Origin: a virus
DNA: 23,263 nucleotides
IMG/VR virus record: IMGVR_UViG_3300048834_000381
Coordinates: 1 to 23,263 of that record
Reading direction: 5' to 3' (one strand)
Shown: piece after piece, positions 5,641-18,494 of the stretch
How positions within the stretch are numbered: the first letter of the stretch is position 1
Layout: each line of letters starts with the position of its first letter
Notes under the pieces: model-generated
What the model was told of the DNA's origin: nothing
The model's input: the letters and a program-made list of their open reading frames with translations, nothing else
The model's database searches: none
Translations under genes and position numbers: made by a program

Positions 5641-5925
5641 ATGGATAAATGGTCGTCACCGTGGGATATTGAAGTTTCCGAAGAAGAAACACCATCAACA
5701 TTCCCAGAACAATCGGTATCTAGGTTCGATCTAGAAGAACAAATCATGGAGTGCTGGCAAGTTACGAATGATATTCGTCTCTTGCATGAAGCATTTAATC
5801 TTAATTCAGCAACTATTGGTGAATTTTCTGATTCACTAAAGGGTCTCGCTGCACTATATGAGATTAAATTCAATCGTATGTGGAACACATTCGAGGGTCT
5901 AATCTCAGACCGTAAGATAACTTAA
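5641..5925 (+). CDS. Conserved small T4-like protein, 94 aa
   Basis: It starts two bases after the gp32 stop and is surely co-transcribed with it; GAGGAAG in the end of gp32 is the ribosome site. An acidic N-terminus (residues 1-25) precedes RFDLEEQIMECWQVTNDIRLL. This is a pattern I associate with a small uncharacterised protein common beside gene 32 or other replication genes of T4-like cyanophages. It is all-helical by appearance. The last four bases (TTAA) are shared with the end of the tape measure gene on the other strand. Confidence 0.7.
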   Translation: MDKWSSPWDIEVSEEETPSTFPEQSVSRFDLEEQIMECWQVTNDIRLLHEAFNLNSATIGEFSDSLKGLAALYEIKFNRMWNTFEGLISDRKIT

Positions 5926-7796
5926 GCGTACCTCATTCGACTCTGCAGGAATGTTTGCAGAGTCGAATCTGGGTTCCTCACCCCCAACGTAACATTAGTA
6001 GAGTTGCTATTTGATGTAACAGGTGTAGTCACAACTTTTACTTGTTTTGTGGCCTCAACCAATTGTGCGTGTTTAGCATCTTCTTTCTTCTCTTTCTTCT
6101 CTTCTTTTTTGTCCTCAACTGCCTTCAACGTATTAATTTGCGCTGCCACTCTGGTTGTTTTAGAGCCTGCGTTGGTTACTGGAGCTGAGATTAATTTCGG
6201 ATCTACATCTACTCCTCTTGCCTTTAATTTATTTGCTAATACAGTAGAAATCGGCCTTCCTTCCGCTTTAGCTTTGTTGTAATACTCAAGCTCTTGTTTC
6301 TCCTCACCCTGCTTTATTTTGTCGTCGGTTGAAGAGCCGAACCATCCTTGAACTGTTTCAACTCCACTAACCAACTTGTCGCTCAACCCTAGTTTCTTAT
6401 TCAACCACGATCCAATTTTGAACCCAGCCATTGCTGCACCTATCACACCTAGTACTGGCCCCAACGCCATTGCTAACTTACCAAATAGTCCTATAACGGG
6501 TCCCATTGCAACCATTAGCCCTTTAATGATCGGACCAAACCCACCCTTAAGTATTGGTAGTAATCTTTTAAATATCCCTTTAAAACCTCCAGCGAGTGCC
6601 CCAAATAGAGAGGATTTTCCTGTTTGATCCTTCTCACCATCTCCATCTTCTTTCGGTTTACCTCTAAACATGGTTTGCAATCTTTCAGCAAATGTCTTTC
6701 TAGGTTCGACACGAGTGTTCTGCTCTTCTGCTTGTTGGGCGGGTGCATCAGGTGCTTGTTGCGTAATTCTACCACTTCTGAACACTGCAGGCATCGTGGG
6801 TGAAATTGGTGTTACTGCAGCAGGTGCTTGTTGCGTAATTCTACCACTTCTGAACACTGCAGGCATCGTGGGTGAAATTGGTGTTACTGCAGCAGGTGTC
6901 GCAGAGGCAGTAGTAGCAGGTGCCGCAGTAGTAGCAGGTGCCGCAGTAGTAGCAGGTGCCGCAGTATGTGCTGCTTTTACATTCCTCGCTGTTTTAGATA
7001 ACACACTATTCAAAAATACAGATGTTGCAACTGCTCGTGACCCAAAACCCCCAGTGGATGCCACTCCACCCAAAACAGCGGTCCCTAAGGGTTTCAGCAA
7101 ATTACTAAGTATACTATCCTTTTTCCGACTAGAACCATCTTCATTATCATCATCTTGAGCCCCGACAGAATTAGATGACCCATTCGCAGTATTCTCAGCA
7201 ATCTCCTCCAGTAGTGATATTATTTTTTTGTTTGCTGGGTCAGAGGAGCCTGCTTTTCTAAGCCCCGCCATCTCTGCATCTGCCTTAGACTTTATCTCAC
7301 TCTCTTTTTCTGTATATTCCTGAGTGCCTGTATATTTGCGTTCTAACTTAGCTGCTGCATCTCTGGATGCACCATATAGAGCCCGCATTACCGGTGATTT
7401 GGTTGTAGAAATCTGCTCATTTGTTTTCTCTTTGGTCTTACGTATCCAAGAGGGAACAGAAGACTCATAGAGGTCTTTCAGTTGAGCATCTCTCTCTGCT
7501 TTTACCTGTGTTATGGTTCTTCTATTGGTTGGTGGTTGATTACCCCCAGCACTAGAAGGTGGTGGGGCACTCTGTCTTGCTTGCTTTGGGTCTATGTTTA
7601 ATTCACTTCGCAACCATGAGTCTGGAGGAACCAACTCAGAGGGCACTGAACCTGAGGCAAGTGCATTTCTATACTCTGTTAATAACTGATTTTGCTCAAC
7701 TGGATTTCTTGCAATCCAATTTTCAGGTAGTCCATCCCATTTTTTAGCTAGCTCTAACTCGTCTCCATAACCAAACTTTGGGGTTGCTCTAACCAT
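5922..7796 (-). CDS. Tail tape measure protein (gp29-type)
   Basis: The protein has 624 residues, close to T4 gp29 (590). It lies directly after the tail chaperone frame, the usual place of a tape measure. Residues about 1-250 are charged and mostly helical. Residues 280-350 are Ala/Pro/Thr-rich with a 6-residue repeat and a tandem 24-residue repeat. Residues about 395-490 are Gly-rich and hydrophobic (GGFKGIFKRLLP, GPVIGLFGKLAMALGPVLG), typical of tape measures that insert into the membrane during DNA entry. A Lys/Glu-rich stretch (EDKKEEKKEKKEDAKH) follows. It would set tail length and form part of the hub. AGAGG lies about 10 bases before the ATG. The assignment rests on position and composition rather than on aligned motifs. 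Confidence 0.7.
   Translation of the reverse strand: MVRATPKFGYGDELELAKKWDGLPENWIARNPVEQNQLLTEYRNALASGSVPSELVPPDSWLRSELNIDPKQARQSAPPPSSAGGNQPPTNRRTITQVKAERDAQLKDLYESSVPSWIRKTKEKTNEQISTTKSPVMRALYGASRDAAAKLERKYTGTQEYTEKESEIKSKADAEMAGLRKAGSSDPANKKIISLLEEIAENTANGSSNSVGAQDDDNEDGSSRKKDSILSNLLKPLGTAVLGGVASTGGFGSRAVATSVFLNSVLSKTARNVKAAHTAAPATTAAPATTAAPATTASATPAAVTPISPTMPAVFRSGRITQQAPAAVTPISPTMPAVFRSGRITQQAPDAPAQQAEEQNTRVEPRKTFAERLQTMFRGKPKEDGDGEKDQTGKSSLFGALAGGFKGIFKRLLPILKGGFGPIIKGLMVAMGPVIGLFGKLAMALGPVLGVIGAAMAGFKIGSWLNKKLGLSDKLVSGVETVQGWFGSSTDDKIKQGEEKQELEYYNKAKAEGRPISTVLANKLKARGVDVDPKLISAPVTNAGSKTTRVAAQINTLKAVEDKKEEKKEKKEDAKHAQLVEATKQVKVVTTPVTSNSNSTNVTLGVRNPDSTLQTFLQSRMRYA
5935..5968. terminator. 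Hairpin between convergent genes (possible two-way terminator)
   Basis: A perfect 13-bp stem (5935-5947 with 5956-5968, arm ATTCGACTCTGCA) encloses an 8-base loop. It lies inside the last codons of the tape measure gene, just past the stop of the converging gp32-side operon. No U-run follows on either strand, so termination is inferred only from position and stem strength. Confidence 0.5.
6749..6892 (-). repeat. Tandem 72-bp repeat within the tape measure gene
   Basis: Copies at 6749-6820 and 6821-6892 are identical and in frame, giving two 24-residue units (AAVTPISPTMPAVFRSGRIT and four more residues). A third copy begins (CAGGTG) and is then lost. Perfect identity suggests a recent duplication. 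Confidence 0.9.
6907..6960 (-). repeat. Triple 18-bp repeat encoding Ala/Pro/Thr hexamers
   Basis: GCAGTAGTAGCAGGTGCC occurs three times without a mismatch (6907-6924, 6925-6942, 6943-6960). On the minus strand it encodes three APATTA-type units, forming a flexible linker in the tape measure beside the 72-bp repeat. Confidence 0.9.
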
Positions 7797-8657
7797 TTTT
7801 ATTTGCCTCTTTTTCCAACTGTTGTATTAAAAGTGTTACATATATCTCACGTTCATAAGGTATCATCTGTTCCAACTCTGACAGTGAATATGAATGTTTT
7901 GTCATTAGAAAGAAATTTATAGTAAAAAAATCAGATAGAGTCTCTAATGACAGGCCTATGCGAAAAAACTGTCGAGGCCCTCCAATAAAATAGAGTTTGT
8001 TTCACCACAGTTTACACATACAAACTTATCTTCCAAATAAACCTTAGGTGCTGATGATATAAACTCTTGCAGCAACTCAATGTGCTTGTGTGTTAGGTTA
8101 CCTATAAAATCAATCTGCTTTTCTAATGGGACTTCAGTATAGTCATATGTTGATTCCCCAATAATTAACTTATCTATACATGATGCTATATACTCCTCTG
8201 CTGCAGATACTTCGTCTGTTGCATCCAACAGCTTATAGGTGGCATTCATAGTAGGATACTTCATAATAACCCAAACTTTACCCTTCTCTAATTCGATCTC
8301 TGGCTCCATTGTTTTTTTGGTGATATTGATCTTAGACATATCTAAAGTCAGAATTTTTTTTGTTTTGCACTTACTGCATTCTGTTTGTATCTCAACCCCC
8401 TCACCAAAGGATTTATTTCTTATATGAACAAACAGGAATTCAATATCTGCAGCAGTCATACTATCCACATCTAACTTTTCAAACGTGCACGCAGATACTA
8501 TCTGCTTCATTGATCTCACTATAGAATCAGATTTACCTTCTTCTATAGCAAGCAGTAGTATTTTTTCCTCTTTCACCACAAATGGTCTATACTTCACTTT
8601 CTTTTTTGTTGTAGGTAGGGTTACTTCATATGTTGGTAGTTGCAATTCAGGTAACAT
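7789..8657 (-). CDS. Predicted -1 frameshift product: gp26-like protein plus 57-residue extension
   Basis: Residues 1-232 come from the gp26-like frame. After a slip at 7968-7962, reading continues from 7962 to a TAG at 7791-7789 and adds 57 residues, giving about 289 aa. The extension contains DFFTINFFLMTKHSYSLSE followed by LEQMIPYEREIYVTLLIQQL. I associate this pattern with the second domain of tail chaperones (gpT/gp51-like). Its stop overlaps the tape measure ATG. This copies the gpG/gpGT layout of many phages, in which both forms are needed to load the tube onto the tape measure. An internal ATG at 7905 could start a separate 38-residue protein, but it has no ribosome site. Confidence 0.65.
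7956..8657 (-). CDS. 26: Baseplate hub assembly / tail chaperone, gp26-like (T4_baseplate family)
   Basis: The protein has 233 residues (T4 gp26 has 208). The N-terminal LPTYEVTLPTTKKKVKYRPF, then VVKEEKILLLA, is the signature of the T4 gp26/gp51 baseplate family. Two cysteine pairs, C94/C97 and C214/C217, look like a zinc ribbon split over the protein. Gp26 helps assemble the central hub in T4, and such proteins behave like tail chaperones in other myoviruses. AAGGA lies about 7 bases before the ATG. It follows gp54 by 14 bases and precedes the tape measure. Its end carries a slippery heptamer; see the frameshift product. Confidence 0.85.
   Translation of the reverse strand: MLPELQLPTYEVTLPTTKKKVKYRPFVVKEEKILLLAIEEGKSDSIVRSMKQIVSACTFEKLDVDSMTAADIEFLFVHIRNKSFGEGVEIQTECSKCKTKKILTLDMSKINITKKTMEPEIELEKGKVWVIMKYPTMNATYKLLDATDEVSAAEEYIASCIDKLIIGESTYDYTEVPLEKQIDFIGNLTHKHIELLQEFISSAPKVYLEDKFVCVNCGETNSILLEGLDSFFA
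7962..7968 (-). promoter_or_regulatory. Candidate -1 ribosomal frameshift site (T TTT TTC)
   Basis: On the minus strand the last codons of the gp26-like gene read AGT TTT TTC GCA TAG. The heptamer T TTT TTC is in the exact X XXY YYZ phase for a -1 slip. The -1 frame is open for 57 codons beyond it, up to the start of the tape measure. No strong downstream hairpin or pseudoknot was found by eye. Confidence 0.75.
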
Positions 8658-9613: not shown

Positions 9614-10534
9614 ATGTCCAATATTTATATCAATGAAATTAAATTAGTTGCGTTAAACAACAAATATACTCGGTGGTACATAAATCTAATTGAATCTAGG
9701 TATTTTTATGCACCAAATAAATACAACAAAAGGGTAATGGGTAAAAATATGTATGGGCCGGGGAACTCTGAATGCCACCACATATTTCCTGTTTCACTGT
9801 GTTCAACTGATGAGATGAAAAATGATCCATGCAACTTAGTTGTATTGACTCATAGGGAACATTTCATTGCTCATCGACTGCTATCCAAAATGTTTTCTGA
9901 CGTTAGAATAAAATCTAAGATGGTAAATGCTATAACAATGTTTCAGAGATCATATGATAGGGCACTAACGTCTTGGCAGTATGCAATTGCACGAACTGAA
10001 GCAACGAAATTACTAAATGCGAGAAACACTTTAACTGGAGAAACAGATAGGCTTCTGAGAGAGTATATTGATGGTGTTATTTGGGTAAATGCTGCTACGG
10101 GAAGAAAACACAGTGAAAAATCAAAAAGGCTGATATCCGAAAGACAAAGAGGAGTCCCTAAACCACGAGAACATGTTGAAAAAATTGCGGCAAAACGGAG
10201 AGGAATGCCGCTGGGACCACAATCACCCGCGCATAGTGATAAGATAAGACAAAAATTAATAGGAAGAAAACCTAGTAACGTTCTCTTGTTCAATCGAAGA
10301 CGAAAGAAGGTAGTAGAAATTATAAGTAATAACCATGTTAACTCCTGGGAAGAATTTGTTCAATTGTTCAAACAGACATATGCAAATACAAAATCAATAA
10401 ACAAAACTAGGATATTATTAAAGATAGATCATGACACCGCAGTTGGATTTACATATGACTGCATACTTGAAAACTATGAAGATCACAATTTAGTTCCTCG
10501 CGCATACGGATTCAAAAACCCAAACATGGCTTAG
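9614..10534 (+). CDS. Free-standing HNH homing endonuclease with NUMOD3 repeats
   Basis: The protein has 306 residues. The HNH core is ECHHIFP (H55, H56), then NLVVLTHREHFIAHRLL (N74, H80, H83, H87). Residues about 163-219 hold three NUMOD3-like DNA-binding repeats (GRKHSEKSKRLISERQRG, GVPKPREHVEKIAAKRRG and a third). The enzyme would cut a relative lacking this insert so that repair copies the gene across. AAGGAGG sits 9 bases before the ATG. It lies between gp54 and the gp2-like gene but on the opposite strand, and its stop overlaps the gp2-like stop by four bases. The neighbours look complete, so the insertion fell between genes. Confidence 0.9.
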   Translation: MSNIYINEIKLVALNNKYTRWYINLIESRYFYAPNKYNKRVMGKNMYGPGNSECHHIFPVSLCSTDEMKNDPCNLVVLTHREHFIAHRLLSKMFSDVRIKSKMVNAITMFQRSYDRALTSWQYAIARTEATKLLNARNTLTGETDRLLREYIDGVIWVNAATGRKHSEKSKRLISERQRGVPKPREHVEKIAAKRRGMPLGPQSPAHSDKIRQKLIGRKPSNVLLFNRRRKKVVEIISNNHVNSWEEFVQLFKQTYANTKSINKTRILLKIDHDTAVGFTYDCILENYEDHNLVPRAYGFKNPNMA

Positions 10535-14398: not shown

Positions 14399-16882
14399 GT
14401 GAACAATTATCACTTTGGTGTGGTTGAGGATAGATTAGATCCTCTTAAGTTAGGTAGGTTGCGTGTAAGAATTGTGGGATTGCACAATGAGAATAAGGCA
14501 GAATTGCCAACTGAGGATTTACCCTGGGCAACTCCTGTGCAAAACTTCACTAGTGCGGCAATGAATGGGATAGGATTCAGCCCGACAGGTCCTGTAGAAG
14601 GAACCTGGGTTTTGTGTATATTCACAGACGAAAGTATGCAAACACCCATAATACTGGGTACGGTAGGCGGATTCCCATTGGTTAAAGATGTATATTTAAG
14701 TGAGGTGGAATCGGATCAAATGGGTGGTCAGCCTAGTGGAGCTGCATTAACCCCATCCGCCCCACCATTAGAACCTGATCCTCCAGTACCACCTGAGCCA
14801 AGTTATGTTGGTACTGGCACTGGTGGTATTGTAACCGATAGTGAGGGTGCTCCAGTCACCACAGGAGATCCCAACGAAGGGGTGACACCTGAAGGAAAAT
14901 ACCTTGGGTCCTTGACTAAAGATCAATATGCCAAAATAAAGCAACATATAGGAAACTTAGAGTCATCAAATAATTATCAAGCAATAGAGAAAAACAACGG
15001 TCACTATTTAGGAAAGTATCAAATAGGTGCAGGTAAGTTGGTTGATTATGGGTATATCAAGGGTGATGCATACAAAAAGTATGGTGCAGCAGCGGTGGAC
15101 CATGCTGATGCTTGGGTAGGCAAAGAAGGTATAACATCGAAACAGGATCTTCTAAACAACCCAGTACTTCAAGAGAACCTGATGGACAGGATGCTTCACA
15201 ACAACTACAAACAATTAGTTAAAGGCACCGGAATAAAGGGTGAGGAAGTTGATCCAGCAAAATTGGGTGGACTGTTATATGTTGCACATAACCAGGGTGC
15301 AGGTACTGCGATCAAGTATGTAAATAGTGAGGGTGCATATCAAACAAAGGACGGAAATGGACTAACCACACTTCAGGCATACAAGAACGGATATGCAGCT
15401 ATAGCTGGTTTTGCTCCTAAATCAGCAGAAAATCCTACTCCTAAGAACATCAAAAAACCCGCTTGCACAAACCCATCGCCAAAGTGTAGAGGAAATTGCA
15501 AAAGGTTTGATGTATCTAAAGACCCTACTTCTAAGAAAGAGGAACTGCAGGATAAGCAATGTGAGTTGGACGGATTTAAGGATCCATTTAAGAAGTACCC
15601 ACTTGAAACTCATTTGAATGAACCAGACACCAATAGACTGTCACGAGCACAGAAAGTAAATGAGACGATAGTGAATATAAAGGAACAAGAACGAATTCAA
15701 CATATTCCTGTTGCTAACAGTTCAACAACGTGGTATCAACCATACATTCCTTATAACGCAAAATATCCATATAACCACGTCTATCAGTCTGAATCAGGAC
15801 ATATCATGGAATTTGACGATACTAAAGGATTTGAGAGAACTCATTTTTATCACAAATCAGGTACCTTTTCTGAGGTGGATCACCACGGAACCAAAACTGA
15901 TAGAGTTAAAGGTGCTCGAGTTGTTATTGTTGAGAAGGATGACTTAGTTTATGTGATAGGATCAGGACATGTAGCAATTCAGGGTGATATGTCAGTTAAA
16001 ATTATGGGAAATTCAAATATAGACGTAGCGGGCAATGCATCTATGAACGTAGAAGGAAACTATTACGTAGATGTCAAAGGGGATTGGCATAACAATGTTA
16101 GAGGCAACTACTATATGACTGTGCAAGAAGATGTGCATTGGATAACAGAGAAGGTGCACCGTGCTCGTGCTGGAAGTGGATCGAATGACCCTGATTATGC
16201 ATCAGAAATACCAGCGTATTCACCTTCCATTGTTCTTCCAACACCATTCACTAGAAAAGAAGAGGAGAGCATAACATTGGAACACACAGACGAAGCAGCT
16301 AAGAAAGCAGATGCAGCAAGTAGAGATTCAACCTCCCCCACACCATCTGAGGAACAGAAGGATGAGGAAAAGCCAAAGGAGGTTGAGCCAGAAACCACGG
16401 AGTGTGATTTTATACTTCCTCTGTCTCCAAGTACAAAACTGACAGCAAACTTTAGATTGAAGGACTTAATAATGTCAGGACACAGGTTCCCTTATGGTGG
16501 GGAATGGCAAGGACTCAAAGACACTAAAATAGCTTGCAACCTAAAACATCTATGTATGAACGTGGTTGAACCTCTTTTTGAAAAATATGGCGGTGATGGT
16601 ATTACCATAAACAGTGGGTTTAGAAGTCTAGGAGGAAATTCGCAACACGAAAGGGGACAGGCTGTTGATATTGGATTCGGTGGTCATAGAGGAAACAGAC
16701 AGTTTTACTTTGACAAAGCAAAGGAAATTAAGAATTTAGTGCCATACGATCAATTGTTATTAGAATATGATGGAGGATCCGTTTGGATTCATATATCATT
16801 TAGTCAAGAATCAAACAGAAAACAAATCTTAACACTCAATAACCATCGAACATACGGTCAAGGATTGATACTATTAGCTTAA
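14399..16882 (+). CDS. 5: Central spike gp5 with transglycosylase-like and M15-peptidase-like domains
   Basis: The GTG start follows the gp27-like stop at once; the protein has 827 residues (T4 gp5 has 575). Residues 1-100 form the OB-fold (YHFGVVEDRLDPLKLGRLRV, GPVEGTWVLCIFTDE). Residues 165-340 look like an SLT/lysozyme domain (NLESSNNYQAI with probable catalytic E188, then YLGKYQIGAGKL). Residues 455-590 are the spike beta-helix (MGNSNIDVAGNASMNVEGNY and similar). Residues 675-815 look like a VanY/M15 peptidase: SQHERGQAVD gives H750 and D757, and VWIHIS gives H798 as zinc ligands. The spike pierces the outer membrane and cuts both glycan and peptide bonds. T4 gp5 has one lysozyme (GH24) domain only. 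Confidence 0.85.
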   Translation: MNNYHFGVVEDRLDPLKLGRLRVRIVGLHNENKAELPTEDLPWATPVQNFTSAAMNGIGFSPTGPVEGTWVLCIFTDESMQTPIILGTVGGFPLVKDVYLSEVESDQMGGQPSGAALTPSAPPLEPDPPVPPEPSYVGTGTGGIVTDSEGAPVTTGDPNEGVTPEGKYLGSLTKDQYAKIKQHIGNLESSNNYQAIEKNNGHYLGKYQIGAGKLVDYGYIKGDAYKKYGAAAVDHADAWVGKEGITSKQDLLNNPVLQENLMDRMLHNNYKQLVKGTGIKGEEVDPAKLGGLLYVAHNQGAGTAIKYVNSEGAYQTKDGNGLTTLQAYKNGYAAIAGFAPKSAENPTPKNIKKPACTNPSPKCRGNCKRFDVSKDPTSKKEELQDKQCELDGFKDPFKKYPLETHLNEPDTNRLSRAQKVNETIVNIKEQERIQHIPVANSSTTWYQPYIPYNAKYPYNHVYQSESGHIMEFDDTKGFERTHFYHKSGTFSEVDHHGTKTDRVKGARVVIVEKDDLVYVIGSGHVAIQGDMSVKIMGNSNIDVAGNASMNVEGNYYVDVKGDWHNNVRGNYYMTVQEDVHWITEKVHRARAGSGSNDPDYASEIPAYSPSIVLPTPFTRKEEESITLEHTDEAAKKADAASRDSTSPTPSEEQKDEEKPKEVEPETTECDFILPLSPSTKLTANFRLKDLIMSGHRFPYGGEWQGLKDTKIACNLKHLCMNVVEPLFEKYGGDGITINSGFRSLGGNSQHERGQAVDIGFGGHRGNRQFYFDKAKEIKNLVPYDQLLLEYDGGSVWIHISFSQESNRKQILTLNNHRTYGQGLILLA

Positions 16883-17500: not shown

Positions 17501-17977
17501 ATGAAGAAATATGAATTCACTGGCGTCAAAAAAAATGGCTTGATGCAAATTCGAGCAGTACGAGATTTCGGTTCGGTTAAAAAAGGCGACATTGGTGGTT
17601 GGATCGAAAAAGAATCCAATTTGAGCCATAACGATACTTGTTGGGTGCGTGGTGATGCGCAGGTGTTCGATGACGCTCAAGTGTTCAATCGGGCACAAGT
17701 GTTAGGTCAAGCGCAGGTGTATGGTAACGCTCAAGTTAGCGATAAAGCTCGGGTGTCAGGTGATGCTCAAGTGCTCGATAACGCTCGGGTGTATGGTGAT
17801 GCTCAGGTGTCAGGTCACGCTCAAGTGTTCGATAACGCTCAAGTGTTCGGTTATGCTTGGGTGTCAGGTGATGCTCGGGTGTCAGGTGATGCTCGGGTGT
17901 CAGGTCACGCTCAAGTGCTCAATAACGCTCGGGTGTCAGGTGATGTTTGGGTGTCAGGTAACGCTCGGGTGGTGTGA
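17501..17977 (+). CDS. Hexapeptide-repeat (beta-helix) protein A, 158 aa
   Basis: The first about 45 residues (MKKYEFTGVKKNGLMQIRAV, then RDFGSVKKGDIGGWIEKESN) are a conserved head found in phage and prophage proteins. After it come about 18 hexamers of the type (A/G)xVxGx, for example DAQVFDDAQV and DARVSGDARVSG. These should wind into a left-handed beta-helix, as in acyltransferases and polymer-forming proteins. No catalytic histidine of an acyltransferase is seen. The AGGAG ribosome site precedes the ATG. Codons are repetitive (GCTCAAGTG, GCTCGGGTG), so the repeat number can change by recombination. Role unknown; a structural or host-directed binding surface is possible. Confidence 0.75.
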   Translation: MKKYEFTGVKKNGLMQIRAVRDFGSVKKGDIGGWIEKESNLSHNDTCWVRGDAQVFDDAQVFNRAQVLGQAQVYGNAQVSDKARVSGDAQVLDNARVYGDAQVSGHAQVFDNAQVFGYAWVSGDARVSGDARVSGHAQVLNNARVSGDVWVSGNARVV

Positions 17978-17984
17978 AATAATC

Positions 17985-18494
17985 ATGAAGAAATATGAAT
18001 TCACTGGCGTCAAAAAAAATGGCTTGATGCAAATTCGAGCAGTACGAGATTTCGGTTCGGTTAAAAAAGGCGACATTGGTGGTTGGATCGAAAAAGAATC
18101 CAACTTAAGTCACGGAGGTAACTGCTGGGTGTTTGGTGATGCGCAGGTGTTCGATGACGCTCAAGTGTATGGTAACGCTCGGGTGTTCAATCGGGCACAA
18201 GTGTTCGGTCGAGCGCAGGTGTTCGATGACGCACAAATGTTCGATCGAGCGCAGGTGTCCGGTCGAGCGCTAGTGTATGATAACGCTCAAGTGTATGGTG
18301 ATGCTCAGGTGTCAGGTTGCGCTCAAGTGTTCGAGAACGTTTGGGTGTTCGATAACGCTTGGGTGTTCGATGATGCTCAAGTGTGCGATAACGCTCAAGT
18401 GTTCGGTACTGCTCGGGTGTATGGTTACGCTCGGGTGTATGGTTACACTAAAGTGTTCGATAACGCTCGGGTGTATGGAGCGCTCAAGTGTTGA
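17985..18494 (+). CDS. Hexapeptide-repeat (beta-helix) protein B, 169 aa
   Basis: This is a tandem copy of gene A starting 8 bases after its stop. The first 119 coding bases are identical to those of A. The true start is ATG at 17985; a longer in-frame opening from 17721 only reads gene A out of frame. About 20 hexamers follow (AQVFGRAQVFDDAQMF and similar), ordered differently from A. The ribosome site is weak, so translation may depend on A. The last coil reads RVYGALKC: a one-base loss relative to the repeat phase moves it out of frame just before the stop. Confidence 0.75.
   Translation: MKKYEFTGVKKNGLMQIRAVRDFGSVKKGDIGGWIEKESNLSHGGNCWVFGDAQVFDDAQVYGNARVFNRAQVFGRAQVFDDAQMFDRAQVSGRALVYDNAQVYGDAQVSGCAQVFENVWVFDNAWVFDDAQVCDNAQVFGTARVYGYARVYGYTKVFDNARVYGALKC

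Follow-up and report, generated by a model that had tools for sequence, protein, structure and literature searches.

Whether a run of T residues at the end of a gp26-like tail gene marks a place where ribosomes change frame is the question raised by the locus studied here, which lies in a 23,263-nucleotide stretch of viral DNA (IMG/VR record IMGVR_UViG_3300048834_000381, positions 1 to 23,263; hereafter the window). The initial annotation, made from the letters alone, had proposed a likely programmed -1 frameshift, and the conserved heptamer and open -1 frame of related loci support that proposal. By all available comparative tests T TTT TTC is a real programmed -1 frameshift site, and the locus very probably encodes two tail assembly chaperones of the gpG/gpGT type, a short form and a long form, the latter produced by a -1 slip.

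Slip site in the window

The heptamer (minus strand, 7968-7962) lies three codons from the end of the gp26-type gene and is phased as X XXY YYZ; the zero-frame codons there are AGT TTT TTC GCA TAG, and the stop occupies 7958-7956. Across the region the minus strand reads GGAGGGCCTCGACAGTTTTTTCGCATAG. The in-phase heptamer followed by GCA TAG, as first described, is confirmed, with coordinates correct to within a few bases. After two Phe codons the -1 frame stays open for 57 codons, again as claimed, until a TAG at 7791-7789, giving a predicted fused product of 289 aa. This stop falls five bases within the next gene (ATGGTTAG) and thus overlaps its codons 2-3; the initial annotation was right about the overlap but had placed it exactly over the ATG, which lies at 7796-7794. 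T6Y is not rare on its own (17 observed in the window versus 26.6 expected). Codon shuffling gave p ~0.016 for an in-phase slippery heptamer within the last five codons, and 57 open -1 codons have a chance probability of ~0.008. Table 1 lists the features of the locus.

Table 1. Features of the frameshift locus, in window coordinates
Feature	Position	Strand	Basis or match
Slippery heptamer T TTT TTC	7962..7968	-	phase; T TTT TTN kept in 101/101 loci
SD-like GGAGGG, 9 nt upstream of heptamer	7978..7983	-	anti-SD duplex -9.8 kcal/mol
gp26-like gene, short form (TAC-N), 233 aa	7956..8657	-	PF12322, phrog_150 'baseplate hub'
-1 extension (TAC-C, gp51 C-terminal homologue), 57 codons past slip plus stop	7789..7967	-	phrog_634
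624-aa gene, probable tape measure protein	5922..7796	-	position, length and hydrophobic stretches only

Products and neighbouring genes

In hmmscan searches the zero-frame product matched PF12322 (T4_baseplate; E 1.2e-52, 179 bits, curated cut-off 24.5), in agreement with the gp26-like identity first claimed for it, and phrog_150 (E 2e-56); the closest gp26 found is 45% identical to the window protein. The extension matched phrog_634 'baseplate hub assembly catalyst' (gp51) with E 1.4e-20. Comparison of its 57 residues with gp51 and lambda T had been suggested at the outset: hhalign found T4 gp51 (E 1e-5), whereas single lambda G and T sequences showed no similarity. The extension is homologous to the C-terminal part of T4 gp51. 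The extension also matches the end of phrog_150 (231-279 of 282), indicating that one profile spans both parts in other phages.

The neighbouring genes are of T4 type (gp4, gp2, tail tube-like, gp48/54, gp53 and gp5). The 624-aa gene into which the extension runs probably encodes the tape measure protein, as its position, length and hydrophobic stretches suggest; family and phage matches to it were sought and none was found, and its HTVC008M counterpart is annotated 'putative tail tape measure'. This gene contains whole-codon tandem repeats at 6744-6966 (72 nt x 2.2, 98%; 18 nt x 3.3, 100%), which could alter the length of the gene and, with it, that of the tail. On the opposite strand, flanked by the gp2-like and tail tube-like genes, a 306-aa gene (9614-10534, +) with a weak NUMOD3 match (E 0.005) probably encodes a homing endonuclease. 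In the gp5-like protein (14399-16882, +), which has OB and trimerisation domains, the C-terminal part weakly matches peptidase M15 (E 0.009) and the middle part resembles another gp5 family. Further along, at 17501-18494, are two adjoining genes with an identical start (MKKYEFTGVKKNGLMQIRAVRDFGSVKKGDIGGWIEKESNLS). Both are built of 18-nt tandem units that match the YdcK beta-solenoid repeat (E 5e-19 and 5e-18), and their resemblance to each other suggests a recent duplication. No tRNA genes were found in the window.

Conservation of the heptamer and the -1 frame

The comparison set consisted of 80 IMG/VR loci and ~20 annotated phages, 101 sequences being analysed with the window included, and 46 representatives were taken as loci below ~75% gp26 identity. 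The decisive support for the heptamer is comparative and drawn from sequence: every locus retained T TTT TTN in identical phase together with the open -1 frame, including those of Kyanoviridae, Schizotequatrovirus, Angelvirus, Pootjesviridae, pf16, Menderavirus and a Desulfovibrio phage. No relative lacked the heptamer or the open frame, and a candidate separate start was confined to a few exceptions described below. Among the representatives the Z base of the heptamer is most often C (28), less often T (14) and rarely G (3) or A (1), while the preceding wobble T and the first slip codon TTT are invariant (46/46), with a chance product of ~1e-24 from per-locus codon usage, a figure not corrected for phylogeny and overstated because the loci are related.

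The distance from the heptamer to the zero-frame stop is 10 nt in 33 of the 46 representatives and ranges from 7 to 43 nt in the others. In four loci (L028, L055, L067 and L070) the zero-frame gp26 runs on, the heptamer lying 31 to 49 nt ahead of the stop, so the stop codon need not adjoin the slip site. As in relatives generally, the homologous extension of these loci begins at the heptamer, not at the stop, despite the long gp26 tail. Substitutions in the -1 frame of 26 non-overlapping close-relative pairs numbered 37, 26 and 128 at codon positions 1, 2 and 3 (128/191 at the third), a bias indicating that the frame is translated and selected.

Correspondence with T4 gp26 and gp51

Almost all of T4 gp51 (249 aa) is covered by phrog_150 (13-280 of 282), and its residues 1-201 match PF12322; T4 gp26 (208 aa) matches PF12322 in full and phrog_150 at 14-235, reaching the slip point only. 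BLASTP shows the two proteins to be paralogues (E 2e-6 over 161 columns). The fused product aligns end to end with T4 gp51, across the junction, and the unshifted product aligns with T4 gp26, so that the two paralogous T4 genes correspond to the frameshift products of the window phage. The initial annotation was right that T4 makes gp26 and gp51 as separate proteins. This picture is refined in that gp51 is not the extension alone: it is a gp26-like domain plus the extension. T4 gp51 is thus itself a covalent fusion, which agrees with the idea of a fused form linking the two systems, a link already proposed in 2022 (see Discussion). Gene 26 of T4 ends GAG TTC TTT GAG TTA CTA TAA and that of Krischvirus reads AGT TTC CTT at the slip position; with TTC TTT and TTC CTT, respectively, the slippery site is absent from both two-gene lineages checked. 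A PDB sequence search with T4 gp51 gave no match. In the T4 literature gp26 and gp51 are listed as hub assembly chaperones, and gp51 is not in the particle (PMC3004832).

Start codons in the -1 frame

The extension might instead be a separate small gene encoding a free gp51-like protein, with an independent start that is often coupled to gp26 termination. GenBank records annotate a separate extension CDS in S-PM2, P-SSM2, KVP40, phiM9 and others, and in a minority of phages (KVP40, phiM9, RHph_I46, AF3 and Ps15) an ATG overlaps the gp26 stop, which favours such a gene. However, conservation starts at the heptamer, upstream of any start, and T4 gp51 joins both parts covalently. In 43 of the 46 representatives the stretch from the preceding -1 stop to the heptamer contains no ATG, GTG or TTG, and in many that stop adjoins the heptamer; the first start past the heptamer is scattered from +9 to +135 nt. 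The first possible start in the window is an ATG at +63 nt (residue 22 of 59), where initiation would lose 21 of the 59 conserved residues, and in Desulfovibrio phage 7757 the entire extension frame is devoid of ATG, GTG and TTG. We therefore consider a separate gene very improbable as the explanation of the locus.

The ATG on the gp26 stop of KVP40, Pootjesviridae and Menderavirus lies 12 nt past the heptamer start (L084 1501-1516, L091, L094, L097 and L099). A separate start is possible in these phages, which, as far as their sequences indicate, could make a free C-terminal domain besides the frameshift product.

Frameshift stimulators

Within its gene, the GGAGGG element of the window ranks in the best 2% for pairing with the 3' end of 16S rRNA, and we infer that it is probably a frameshift stimulator of the dnaX type. 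An upstream SD-like element was in the best 5% for 19 of the 46 representatives. The 40 nt downstream were more stable than shuffled sequence (z < -2) in 18/46 representatives versus 13/184 control windows (p 1e-4); in the window, minimum-energy folding revealed no downstream hairpin (z 0.2 to 0.6). A single hairpin common to the relatives was rejected, since the stems, judged by eye, lie in different registers; these differ between lineages, so the hairpins look lineage-specific. Mutual exclusion of the SD-like element and the hairpin was likewise unsupported (Spearman -0.17, p 0.25).

These elements also bear on a second explanation, in which RNA polymerase rather than the ribosome slips on the T run. 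The runs are six or seven bases long, with seven in many relatives, which would favour transcriptional slippage, but six bases are short for such a process, the flanking SD-like and hairpin elements are of the ribosome-acting kind, and the heptamer keeps one phase with respect to the gp26 codons even where its distance to the stop varies. We regard polymerase slippage as slightly less probable even than a separate gene. A sequencing error or gene decay as the source of the frame break, the true gene being single-frame like T4 gp51, has a negligible probability, because an identical frame change occurs at the identical place in 101 records, the extension is under purifying selection, and many complete phage genomes contradict a single frame.

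Discussion

Translational frameshifting at a tail assembly chaperone gene thus remains our preferred reading, and it is directly supported by the sequence, its conservation, the selection on the -1 frame and the homology to both T4 proteins. Counted against the chaperone pair are the missing hairpin in the window, the lack of similarity to lambda G and T, a tape measure gene without homology, and the ATGs of some relatives. For the window phage we infer that ribosomes slip, how often they do so, what stimulates them, the role of the products as chaperones and which protein is the tape measure, as follows. Most ribosomes would end at the gp26 stop and yield the short form. A minority would slip back one base at T TTT TTC, two tRNA-Phe re-pairing on TTT TTT, and would read on in the -1 frame to give the long form (TAC-NC) with its gp51-type C-terminal helical domain; the upstream GGAGGG would probably promote this by base-pairing with 16S rRNA. 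If the proteins act like those of lambda, the short form would coat the tape measure protein and tube subunits would be recruited by the long form. In T4 the same two forms come from the paralogous genes 26 and 51.

Expression of the C-terminal domain may also vary by lineage, by frameshifting only (the window and the Desulfovibrio phage), by frameshifting with a coupled ATG (KVP40 and Pootjesviridae) or from two genes (T4), with the stimulator having switched between SD-like sequences upstream and hairpins downstream, the latter in differing registers; we put this scheme forward tentatively and think it rather unlikely to hold as a whole.

The gpG/gpGT layout noticed at the outset is borne out by an in-phase heptamer near the 3' end and a conserved extension without its own start; if the adjoining 624-aa gene is indeed the tape measure gene, the overlapping -1 extension would lie immediately ahead of it, as in lambda. 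The systems differ in that gp26 has an added second domain, and the lambda slippery site is G GGA AAG. In the AlphaFold model of gp26 (pLDDT 90), the N-terminal domain has the HK97 tail assembly chaperone 2ob9 as its second-best match (VIA-align Z 7.6, 83 residues, rmsd 3.5), after 3fgx, an uncharacterised Bacillus protein (Z 7.8), the third match having Z 4.6. The re-alignment covered 995 solved chains, both top Z values are under 8, and the Foldseek match is not significant (E 1.9), so the HK97 fold match is supporting rather than proving. The N-terminal 84 residues of gp26 align with 2ob9, but at 10% identity, and gp26 has ~150 further residues with CxxC motifs. The extension is modelled as three helices (pLDDT 78), and a fold search with it alone in BFVD gave no significant match.

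Frameshifting in the G-T genes is widely conserved, T4 excepted (Atkins et al. 2016, PMC5009743). As cited in PMC10885494 and PMC12846349, Vladimirov, Gautam and Davidson (Virology 2022, doi 10.1016/j.virol.2021.11.003) reported tail assembly chaperone genes of T4-like phages, with short and long genes in some and poly-T slippery sites in others. On those accounts the main claim made here is not new, and nothing essential sets the window, an uncultivated relative, apart from that system: both have a gp26-type TAC-N, a poly-T slippery site and a gp51-type -1 C-terminal domain, the short and long genes being separate in the T4 group. The abstract of the 2022 report is said to name T4 genes 26 and 51 and to describe frameshifting as conserved in several T4-like groups. 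Our analysis adds the survey of 46 diverse representatives, phage 7757 without a start, T4 gene 26 without the heptamer, and a survey of stimulators, with the SD-like element in the window and lineage-specific hairpins elsewhere. Many records of these phages, in which gp51 is a separate truncated gene or is unannotated, are probably wrong. Like the window product, T4 gp26 and gp51 both carry PF12322; gp51 has the C-terminal extension and gp26 ends near the end of the unshifted product, whereas T4 uses two paralogous genes on opposite strands with no slippery site in gene 26. T4, long listed as the exception to G-T frameshifting, is thus exceptional in gene layout only, its gp26 and gp51 corresponding to what its relatives make as short and long products by frameshifting.
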